From contig JABDJB010000109.1 of assembly GCA_013003425.1 (NCBI GenBank), positions 1 to 33,440 on the forward strand: a stretch of 33,440 bases of DNA, written 5' to 3'. Both the position numbers and the translations under genes were made by a program. Below are positions 13,993 through 24,667 of this stretch, in pieces. How positions within the stretch are numbered: the stretch's first letter is position 1; every line of letters starts with the position of its first letter. The notes below the pieces were generated by a model. It worked only from the letters and a program-made list of their open reading frames with translations, had not been told where the DNA came from and made no database searches. This DNA comes from Gammaproteobacteria bacterium (lineage in GTDB: Bacteria; Pseudomonadota; Gammaproteobacteria; Steroidobacterales; JABDKV01).

Positions 13993-14099
13993 TTGTCACG
14001 AAACGTCGCGGCTAACCGTCGAGAAACCTTACAAAAAAGCCAGATTGCCCCCACTGGTCAAACAGTCAAGTTGCTGATCTGACGCGACATAACTGGCGC

Positions 14100-14115
14100 T
14101 GGCACCATTCTTGCT
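14100..14115 (+). promoter_or_regulatory. Sigma-54 (RpoN) promoter of the PEP-CTERM gene
   Basis: TGGCAC (14100-14105), five bases, then TTGCT (14111-14115). The invariant GG (14101-14102) and GC (14113-14114) are exactly 10 nt apart, which is a near-perfect -24/-12 element. The start would fall near 14126, about 36 nt before the ATG. PEP-CTERM genes in floc-forming bacteria are known to be controlled by the PrsK/PrsR two-component system with RpoN, which fits this site. No enhancer site was recognised upstream. Confidence 0.85.
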
Positions 14116-14161
14116 TTTATCTATCACCGCTGACGGTATTTGATGGATCGAGTCTAAAATC

Positions 14162-14809
14162 ATGAAGAAAATACTAGCCGTGGGCCTGCTGGCCCTGACG
14201 CCTTCACTGTTACTGGCGACGCCAATCGTTTCGATGCCCTCCGACTCGGATGGCCCGTTTCGCCACAACGTGTTCCACGCCGCTGAATCTGCGGGCGGCG
14301 CTGCCGGCCAGATCCTGGCGTGGTTTAACCTCGACACCAACGCATCGAGTTTCTGGGATGCAGACACCGGCGCGCTGAGCCTGAACATCAGCATCTACAG
14401 CGATTCGGACCTGACCACCGCGGTAGGCACCGCATCGGCAAGCAGCGATAACCTGATGGGAGCGAATCTCAACGGATTCGACGGCGGGCTTATCGGCAAT
14501 ATTTCCTGGTCATTCGATCTTGCAGCGCAGGAATATTTTAGTACCCGCGACGCCAGCCTGGATCTGTCCGGCATCATCATGATGTCGTTCATGGATTTTG
14601 AATACGCTTCCAACAGCTCTGGCGATATCGCCAACAGCTACCAGAGCAATCTGCTGACATTGTGGGGGGCTGACGGCCTGTTTAATAACGGCGTCTTTGA
14701 AGATTCATCTCTCGGCGTGGACATGATGATGGAGATGTCAGAACCCGGAATTCTTCTGTTGATGGGGTTGGGTCTGATTGGTCTCGGCGCGACGGCGCGC
14801 CGACGCTGA
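14162..14809 (+). CDS. PEP-CTERM sorting-domain protein
   Basis: Secreted protein of 215 aa with a Sec signal peptide (MKKILAVGLLALTPSLLLA, likely cut before TPIV). It has a Ser/Asn/Asp-rich, cysteine-free body. The C-terminal sorting signal is SEPGILLLMGLGLIGLG followed by ATARRR, that is a short motif, a hydrophobic helix and an Arg cluster. The usual Pro-Glu-Pro is Ser-Glu-Pro here, a tolerated variant in the family. XrtA would process it at the membrane, and such proteins are associated with exopolysaccharide and biofilm or floc matrix. The exosortase gene itself is not in this window. It is monocistronic by appearance, with a sigma-54 promoter in front and a strong terminator behind. The function of the body domain is not recognised. 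Confidence 0.9.
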   Translation: MKKILAVGLLALTPSLLLATPIVSMPSDSDGPFRHNVFHAAESAGGAAGQILAWFNLDTNASSFWDADTGALSLNISIYSDSDLTTAVGTASASSDNLMGANLNGFDGGLIGNISWSFDLAAQEYFSTRDASLDLSGIIMMSFMDFEYASNSSGDIANSYQSNLLTLWGADGLFNNGVFEDSSLGVDMMMEMSEPGILLLMGLGLIGLGATARRR

Positions 14810-14841: not shown

Positions 14842-14870
14842 AAAAACCCCGCTTCGGCGGGGTTTTTCTT
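14842..14870 (+). terminator. Rho-independent terminator after the PEP-CTERM gene
   Basis: An A-run leads into CCCCGC-TTCG-GCGGGG followed by TTTTTCTT: a perfect GC stem with a stable UUCG-type loop and a U-tract. It isolates the PEP-CTERM gene from the sulfatase 45 bp downstream. Confidence 0.96.
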
Positions 14871-14914
14871 ATGTGGTTAAACTAGAGGCCCGTATCGAGT
14901 CTGAAGTCGTGCCG

Positions 14915-16342
14915 ATGAAACAGATCATCGTGGCGTTAACCCTCGCCGCAATCAGCCAAATCTCCACTGCCGCGCCAGACGATGGCGCTACCCGGCCCAA
15001 CGTCATCGTGTTCATGGCTGACGATCTTGGCTGGAATGATGTTGGCTACCACGGCTCAAACATCAAGACGCCAAACATCGACGCGCTGGCGGCACAGGCT
15101 GTGCAACTCGAGCAGTTCTACGTCATGCCGTGGTGCACTGCGACGCGCGCAGCTTTTGAAAGCGGCCTCAACCCGGCCCGATTTGGCATCTTGTCGCTGC
15201 AGCACCCATTCCCTGGGCGCACGGCGCTGCCGCCTGACCTTGCGACCCTGCCGGAACTGCTGCGAAGGCATGGCTACTTCACCGCACTCGTTGGTAAATG
15301 GCACCTGAGCTACAGCTTTGATGGTGGGCCGATCGAGCGCGGCTACCAGCGGGCCTTCGGTTACCTGCACGGGCAGATGGATCACTATACGCACGAGGAT
15401 CAGCGCGGCGTGACGTCGCTGTTTCGCGATGACGAGCTGATCAGCGCCGACGGTCACATGACTGACCTGATCGGTGCCGAGCTGCGCAGCCTGCTGCAGC
15501 AGCCCGGGCAGCCATTCTTTATCAACGTGACTTTCAGTGCCCCGCATTACCCGTTGCAGGCTCCGGCGCAATTCATCGATGCAAACGCGGCCATCGAAAA
15601 TCCGGATCGTCGCCTGTTTGCCGGCATGGTGACTCACATGGATCACGTCATCGGCGAGACCGTGAAATTGCTGGAGTCGCGCGGTTTGTTGACCAATACC
15701 ATCATTATTTTTCTGAGCGACAACGGCGGCGACAACTATTTCGAAAACACCCGGGACTATTATGGCGGCAAACACGGCTCCCACAGCATCATGGCGGATA
15801 ATTCGCCCCTGCGCGGCGCGAAGACGGATGTCTATGAGGGCGGGATCAGGGTGCCGGCATTCATCCACTATCCTGCGGTACTGCAGCCACGCGTTATCGA
15901 TCAATTCACGGCGGTTACGGACCTGCTGCCGACGCTGCTGGACTTTGCAGAAGTCGAGCCACCGGCACAGCGTGATGGCGGCAGCCTGCGGCCTCTGCTA
16001 TCTGGCAAGCCGCAGGTACGCGAACCGGAGTATTACTGGTTTACAAGAAGCGTGAAGATCCCGCACGGGGGAGGTAAGCAAAGCGCGGTGCGGCTGGGCA
16101 ACTGGAAACTGATCGAATCGCAGCGGCGCTTCGCATGGCTGCCATGGCGCTTCGAGTGGCCATGGCCGCGTTTCGAACTGTTTGATCTGGGGCAGGACCC
16201 ACGAGAGCAGGTAAACCTGGCGCGAGACCATTCGGATATTGCCGACAAGCTGCGTGGCCGGCTGGAAGAGTATCGTGCCGAGGTTTTCGCTAGCTACCCG
16301 GGCGCTGACGGGAAAGGGCCTGACGCAGCGCCTCACGATTAG
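14915..16342 (+). CDS. Secreted arylsulfatase-type sulfatase
   Basis: Formylglycine-dependent type I sulfatase (475 aa), expected to hydrolyse sulfate esters in the periplasm or outside the cell. I chose ATG 14915 because it starts a signal peptide (MKQIIVALTLAAISQISTAA); an upstream GTG at 14873 only adds a non-hydrophobic tail. Metal ligands MADD (D36-D37) and FLSDNGGDN are present, as are GKWH and SAPHYPLQAP. The maturation site reads C74-T-A-T-R78, so Ala replaces the Pro of the common CxPxR motif. The general layout resembles arylsulfatase B-like enzymes. Only about 45 bp separate it from the previous terminator, so its promoter must be in that short gap. Its 3' end overlaps the convergent nudB by 53 bp. 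The substrate is unknown; a sulfated polysaccharide is likely by context. Confidence 0.92.
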   Translation: MKQIIVALTLAAISQISTAAPDDGATRPNVIVFMADDLGWNDVGYHGSNIKTPNIDALAAQAVQLEQFYVMPWCTATRAAFESGLNPARFGILSLQHPFPGRTALPPDLATLPELLRRHGYFTALVGKWHLSYSFDGGPIERGYQRAFGYLHGQMDHYTHEDQRGVTSLFRDDELISADGHMTDLIGAELRSLLQQPGQPFFINVTFSAPHYPLQAPAQFIDANAAIENPDRRLFAGMVTHMDHVIGETVKLLESRGLLTNTIIIFLSDNGGDNYFENTRDYYGGKHGSHSIMADNSPLRGAKTDVYEGGIRVPAFIHYPAVLQPRVIDQFTAVTDLLPTLLDFAEVEPPAQRDGGSLRPLLSGKPQVREPEYYWFTRSVKIPHGGGKQSAVRLGNWKLIESQRRFAWLPWRFEWPWPRFELFDLGQDPREQVNLARDHSDIADKLRGRLEEYRAEVFASYPGADGKGPDAAPHD

Positions 16343-24225: not shown

Positions 24226-24504
24226 TTAAGTCCGGAACATACCTTCAAGGCCATTGCAGATCAGCTGCAGGTTACCCAGCTTGAGCAGGCACGCCCCGTC
24301 GGTACCGCCCTCATCAATGCCTCTGGCGCCGCCCTCGTCGATGCCCCTGGTGCCGCCTTCGTCGATACCAAGGATCCCGCCCTCGTCGATGCCCTGGTTG
24401 CCGCCTTCGTCGATCCCGAGGATCCCGCCTTCATCGATACCGGCAAAAGCGGTGCCTGCTGCAAACGTAAGGGCAGCCAGAAATGTAATTAAACTGGTCT
24501 TCAT
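24226..24504 (-). CDS. Small secreted protein of six GIDEGGxx octapeptide repeats
   Basis: A 92-residue precursor from ATG 24504, with an excellent ribosome site (GGAGGAA, 6 nt before ATG). The longer open frame to 24642 is not needed. The Sec signal peptide is MKTSLITFLAALTFAAGTAFA, cut before G22. The mature protein starts with six exact GIDEGG units, each followed by two variable residues (IL, NQ, IL, TR, AR, TD; residues 22-69). A 23-residue tail with two cysteines (C72, C83) ends the protein. The D-E-G-G pattern is acidic and flexible and could bind divalent cations. It is not an RTX nonapeptide. I recognise no family. It is probably cotranscribed with the DUF6502 gene. Confidence 0.8.
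   Translation of the reverse strand: MKTSLITFLAALTFAAGTAFAGIDEGGILGIDEGGNQGIDEGGILGIDEGGTRGIDEGGARGIDEGGTDGACLLKLGNLQLICNGLEGMFRT
24298..24441 (-). repeat. 24-bp tandem repeat, six units, coding GIDEGGxx
   Basis: Six in-frame 24-bp units cover residues 22-69 of the small secreted protein. The first 18 bases (GIDEGG) are conserved at the protein level with synonymous differences, and the last six vary. Synonymous drift between units with strict amino-acid conservation points to selection on the peptide rather than recent slippage. Confidence 0.9.
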
Positions 24505-24667
24505 GGTGTCTTCCTCCGCGCTGGATGATTGCCGGGCTGGCGGAGGAGACGGCGCCACAGGATGGTGGCCATCCCTGGCCGCAGTCGCCCTCCCTGCCAA
24601 TCGAACCCGGCGTTGAAAAATGAAAGGGCGCCGCACTGACATTTCTTTTGCGTCAGTTTCAGCGTCT

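Follow-up and report, generated by a model that had tools for sequence, protein, structure and literature searches.

The window analysed here, 33,440 nucleotides in length, is the entire contig C109 of a draft genome of 3.26 Mb in 115 contigs. It contains a single-gene unit with the following features.

14017..14033, forward strand: candidate PrsR box CGTCGAGAAACCTTACA, matching YGTCRN5YYTTACA
14067..14079, forward strand: IHF-like site CAAGTTGCTGATC, matching seven of the nine positions of the IHF consensus YAANNNNTTGATW
14100..14115, forward strand: candidate sigma-54 -24/-12 element TGGCACCATTCTTGCT, identified from the sequence and kept at loci L105 and L158
14162..14809, forward strand: gene of a 215-aa PEP-CTERM protein with the tail ...SEPGILLLMGLGLIGLGATARRR, identified by the PF07589 profile
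14741..14803, forward strand: PEP-CTERM sorting tail, the PF07589 match
14842..14867, forward strand: candidate intrinsic terminator AAAAACCCCGC-TTCG-GCGGGGTTTTT, identified from the sequence; the same hairpin is present in the relic L158 of genome G003

The promoter thus has three elements in order, the -24/-12 element being the last. The protein scores 23.2 bits with PF07589 in the genome search (cut-off 20.7) and 19.4 bits, just under the cut-off, when scanned alone. The terminator closes the unit, and directly past it lies a reading frame (14873-16342, forward strand) which we take to encode a sulfatase-like protein. Elsewhere in the window, a reading frame on the reverse strand (24226-24642) has a signal-like start followed by repeats of a GIDEGG unit.

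A preliminary description of the window had placed a near-consensus sigma-54 promoter at 14100-14115. Indeed, TGGCACCATTCTTGCT agrees with the consensus at 11 of 12 positions, with GG at 14101-14102, GC at 14113-14114 and the claimed 10 nt between them; the distance to the ATG at 14162, given there as 47 bp, is 46 nt. The exact pattern TGGCACN5TTGCT occurs in the window only at this site. With up to two mismatches, 13 matches are observed and 12.6 are expected, so that a loose match alone is uninformative, and the sigma-54 consensus was rejected as a search pattern on its own. Genome-wide, TGGCACN5TTGCW has 13 occurrences against three of the reversed pattern. A second, identical copy of TGGCACCATTCTTGCT was observed in the same genome (G000) at C51:2282-2297 (loci L006 and L071); it lies within a 1561-aa reading frame and thus is probably due to chance.

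Stronger evidence for the candidate site is its pairing with the PrsR box, the gap between them being 66 nt. A PrsK/PrsR/RpoN regulon of PEP-CTERM genes was predicted by Haft et al. 2006 (PMC1569441), who described a motif 1 of 17 nt with TTTACA at its end, followed by a spacer (mean 62.8 nt, SD 10.6, range 32-92) and the sigma-54 motif 2, the mean distance from motif 2 to the start codon being 71 nt. Motif 1 was assigned to the response regulator PrsR via its phylogenetic profile. The box CGTCGAGAAACCTTACA corresponds to this motif in length and in its distance from the downstream site, and ends in CTTACA where motif 1 of Haft et al. ends in TTTACA. The site at 14100-14115 has the -24 (GG) and -12 (GC) of motif 2, and the PEP-CTERM gene starts within the 23-221 nt downstream that characterize the regulon.

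In the whole genome YGTCRN5YYTTACA is found at 18 places, against four for the reversed pattern, and eight of the 18 are upstream of PEP-CTERM genes with Glu-Pro tails. The genome search with PF07589 yielded 23 rows. One of them, L030, was read as prolipoprotein diacylglyceryl transferase rather than as a PEP-CTERM gene and left out, and the other 22 genes were compared using hand-chosen start codons. Treating all matches as one class was rejected, as the two tail types, Glu-Pro (10 genes) and VPxP (12 genes), behave differently. The box is present upstream of eight of the ten Glu-Pro-tailed genes. The pair of box and site (at most three mismatches, within 300 nt) precedes seven of the ten and none of the 12 VPxP-type genes (Fisher p=0.0007), a comparison that is partly circular because eight of these loci had been viewed before the box pattern was written; the independent test of the pattern is provided by the other genomes. 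The Glu-Pro genes without a pair in the allowed spacing are L015, where box and site are too far apart, and L017 and L018, which have neither. One VPxP-tailed gene, L026 (C111:9537), has a perfect PrsR box, but its sigma-54-like sequence TGGCACGATACTTGGA lacks the GC. Pairs with at most one mismatch, as in the window, occur in four of 3774 300-nt segments of the fetched genome regions, true sites included. Hence other PEP-CTERM genes with such sites do exist, a point on which the preliminary description had made its reading depend.

The genome encodes the machinery described by Haft et al. 2006 (PMC1569441), namely RpoN, PrsR, PrsK, PrsT and an exosortase, all above curated cut-offs. RpoN is encoded on contig C106. 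A cluster on contig C6 contains PrsR (TIGR02915, 717 bits, cut-off 502.6), PrsK (TIGR02916, 777 bits, cut-off 300), PrsT (TIGR02917, 630 bits, cut-off 312.2; there are two PrsT-type TPR proteins) and EpsB_2 (568 bits, cut-off 393). The exosortase XrtA (TIGR03109, 316 bits, cut-off 208), an exosortase A fused to EpsI, is on the same contig, as are the XrtA chain-length protein and five more XrtA-associated families, also above cut-off, and TIGR03015, just below. Together with the pairs of box and site, these genes support, at the sequence level, the control by RpoN and PrsK-PrsR suggested in the preliminary description.

The 215-aa protein has few relatives: among 59 genomes, homologs were found only in the genome itself and in G002, a genome of the same genus, where the ortholog is 47% identical. 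Both genes follow the same upstream gene, presumably aspS. In G002 CGTCGGAAAAGCTTACA and TGGCATCGTTCTTGCT are kept at about the same distance, and the PrsR box has one mismatch to YGTCRN5YYTTACA. At locus L158 of G003 (C25:161348-161443 and downstream), TGTCGGAAAACCTTACA, a gap of 64 nt, TGGCATCCTTCTTGCT and the terminator are all kept, and the coding region is a broken remnant of a PEP-CTERM tail. Thus L158 is a promoter relic: in this sister species the regulatory ends have been kept and the PEP-CTERM gene has decayed.

It could be argued that the 16-mer resembles a sigma-54 element by chance and that a sigma-70 promoter drives the gene, in line with the chance-level count of loose matches in the window and with the copy inside the 1561-aa frame. 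However, the site belongs to a paired and phased element ahead of a PEP-CTERM gene, and it survives in the 47%-identical ortholog, and we consider a chance match very unlikely. The site looks like a genuine switch under tight control, serving a secreted cell-surface protein of an uncultured bacterium.

Summed over the five genomes of the family (G000-G004), TTACA-N52-80-TGGYAYN5YTGCW has 28 matches against four in controls. Of 20 loci fetched from G001-G004, 12 also contain the upstream half of the box, a sequence absent from this query. Eight of the 12 precede PEP-CTERM genes (one, L147, is cut by a contig end), one is the relic, and three precede a protein like that behind the C78 element of the window's genome. 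That protein has about 160 aa and no PEP-CTERM tail, and a PrsR/sigma-54 element precedes it in four family genomes (L096, L149, L157, L162); the two members scanned are DUF5658 proteins. At L108 (1624-2400) such an element precedes a 259-aa protein whose PEP-CTERM tail is weak (17.3 bits) and which is weakly similar to the floc protein PepA (23.7 bits, cut-off 80).

We then considered 196 related genomes. The composite pattern GTCGN5YYTTACA-N50-79-TGGYAYN5YTGCW has 125 matches in 74 of them, and the reversed control has none. The gaps between box and site fall into three classes, 50-54 (12 elements), 62-67 (64) and 73-76 (49), with no others. Sequences with at least seven of the nine positions of YAANNNNTTGATW are present in 105 of the 125 spacers, compared to 28.6% of shuffled spacers, and in 86 of 125 the IHF-like site starts 29-35 nt before the TGG. 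Depending on the gap class, the end of the box is mostly 20-21, 31-32 or 42-43 nt before the IHF-like site. These patterns suggest that the gap classes are 11-bp helical steps counted from a fixed IHF-like site; a one-period free fit to the gaps gives 11.85 nt. In the window's genome the predicted composite, in which the order and phase of the box, the IHF-like site and the -24/-12 element are fixed, is common to most Glu-Pro-type PEP-CTERM genes.

These genomes also bear on whether a true sigma-54 promoter could be served by an activator other than PrsR. The window's genome has 11 matches to the sigma-54 activator domain, nine of them strong, and 17 of the 74 composite-bearing genomes have no PrsR match above the cut-off, most of the genomes used being drafts. 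On the other hand, PrsR is encoded together with XrtA and the exopolysaccharide genes, and it is above the cut-off in 57 of the 74 genomes with the composite vs 45 of the 122 others (p=4e-8). The composite occurs in none of the 20 listed genomes of families f13 and f14, and the phylogenetic profile of Haft et al. 2006 (PMC1569441) ties motif 1 to PrsR. We regard a different activator as unlikely.

It is highly probable that positions 14017-14115 form an enhancer-dependent sigma-54 promoter belonging to the PrsK/PrsR/RpoN regulon, and that it turns on a PEP-CTERM protein which is secreted and sorted by XrtA. PrsK would phosphorylate PrsR, which would bind the box at 14017-14033; IHF would bend the spacer DNA, and PrsR would remodel the closed complex of RNA polymerase and sigma-54. 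The transcript would start near 14126 and end near 14867, and the protein would be exported and then processed by XrtA.

This promoter belongs to an already known kind. It shares with the systems of Haft et al. 2006 (PMC1569441) a 17-nt box ending in TTACA, a spacer, a sigma-54 motif and a single PEP-CTERM gene, as well as PrsR/PrsK/PrsT and the EPS cluster. Its relatives differ in that their gaps are quantised in steps of 11 bp, the position of the IHF-like site is fixed and some targets form a class without a gene; the text of Haft et al. (PMC1569441) mentions neither IHF nor small RNA. According to the published description of pepA of Aquincola tertiaricarbonis (PMC9850573), an RpoN1-dependent promoter of this PEP-CTERM gene has been mapped, with a TGGCAC -24 motif, a mapped start and an upstream enhancer sequence. 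The protein and the organism are different, and that promoter is experimental whereas ours is predicted. The window promoter extends the regulon predicted in 2006, for which this promoter, mapped in one species and dependent on RpoN, provides support.

The targets without a gene are represented in the window's genome by two elements with box and site, at C45:46753 and C96:13357; in both cases an A-rich stretch and a terminator come next. The second of them (L099, C96:13121-13265) is convergent to the neighbouring gene. The C45 element and the end of its RNA are conserved in G001-G003. In the 196 genomes such targets are associated with the longest gap. By hand count, the 49 elements with gaps of 73-76 precede 40 predicted RNAs and eight PEP-CTERM genes, one (L224) being unclear; the script count is 39, 9 and 1, the difference being due to misfiling of L226. 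The association between the long gap and RNA has p=1e-20, calculated from the script counts and ignoring relatedness. The script assigned the 76 elements with shorter gaps to 42 PEP-CTERM genes, two RNAs (L250 and L158, the latter being the relic) and 32 other targets, many of them cut by the region fetched. Short-gap elements L285 and L286 of family f11 have a very strong terminator within about 145 nt and may represent a third kind of target.

The predicted RNAs are approximately 200-270 nt long, end in a terminator and are rich in AANAANAA, which exceeds shuffles in all 43 RNAs tested (mean 6.9 vs 0.70). In family f7, 20 RNAs were aligned (mean identity 80%). Their predicted fold pairs 97.3% of cells, compared to 34-48% in slid controls, and the alignment contains 21 cells with double-sided changes vs 7.7 in shuffles (none of 500 reach 21, although relatedness can inflate this number). 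Five of the seven pairs of helix 3 covary, and the stem below a loop bearing AANAANAA is nearly invariant. For the RNA of family f1, the idea of a conserved 5' hairpin found no support, two of four sequences folding well.

A model of the 3' end of the C45 RNA (R1), which contained no promoter, matched the five genomes of the family and, weakly (E 5e-5 to 0.0065), five genomes of two other families, ten of the 196 in total. All five weak matches have an upstream sigma-54 site (0-2 mismatches) and a box (no mismatches in four, two in L169). The match in G004 is cut by the contig end, so that any promoter would lie outside the sequence. No genome of family f7 was matched among the 196, and thus homology between the f1 and f7 RNAs remains unsupported at the level of sequence; they appear to be linked by the promoter, the CA motifs and the terminator. 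When 84,980 species genomes were scanned for the promoter and the RNA motif, 68 stretches were obtained, all with gaps of 74-76, titled as Woeseiaceae, Woeseia, Gammaproteobacteria or Proteobacteria/Pseudomonadota MAGs. The order-level relatives of the window's organism include Woeseiaceae.

No Rfam family scored above the gathering score in the 6 and 17 loci scanned, and no description of an RNA of the PEP-CTERM regulon, or of a role of IHF there, was found in the literature searched. The small RNA described in PMC3333781 is controlled by another regulator, DVU0679. The RNA family, absent from Rfam and from the literature searched, looks new. The shared box suggests that it is probably controlled by PrsR.

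The closest analogy is CrcZ of Pseudomonas, an RNA with six A-R-N stretches that sequesters Hfq and whose RpoN promoter is activated by CbrB (PMC4063720); it has the CA motif AAnAAnAA and requires IHF (PMC3480352). In both cases a response regulator and RpoN, with IHF, would drive an RNA rich in A-R-N or AAnAAnAA, and by sequence the targets described here combine a sigma-54 promoter with multiple such motifs. However, the regulator site is that of CbrB in one case and the PrsR box in the other, CrcZ is 407 nt long, and the new RNA, unlike CrcZ/CrcY, is found alongside PEP-CTERM promoters. The CrcZ family RF01675 scores 23.5 and 23.0 bits at L230 and L236, the gathering score being 95. Of 59 genomes, 52 encode Hfq, among them the four other members of the family; in the draft genome of the window it was not found. 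By analogy with CrcZ, the RNA may titrate Hfq.

Base-pairing small RNAs, leaders or short peptides would be the other products of these elements, and to them we give somewhat less than an even chance. The Rfam CrcZ scores far under the threshold and the same-strand genes downstream of many loci are in their favour. Leaders and peptides are at odds with the terminator at about +200 to +280 and with the lack of a conserved small ORF or peptide in 20 RNA sequences, where at most five share a start column, and ordinary pairing RNAs with the excess of AANAANAA in every RNA tested. The Hfq decoy, in which PrsK/PrsR/sigma-54 also drives a new family of AANAANAA-rich structured RNAs from promoters following an 11-bp helical rule around an IHF-like bend, has in our opinion an even chance of being correct. 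The same regulator probably also drives the RNA, which could titrate Hfq during the exopolysaccharide/PEP-CTERM programme.

The wider element makes three things directly testable: whether PrsR promoters obey a helical-phase rule, whether IHF has a role, and whether the PEP-CTERM system has an RNA arm. If the decoy reading is true, Woeseiaceae and related uncultured Gammaproteobacteria, which are common in sediments, would couple assembly of the exopolysaccharide/PEP-CTERM matrix to a global switch acting after transcription.
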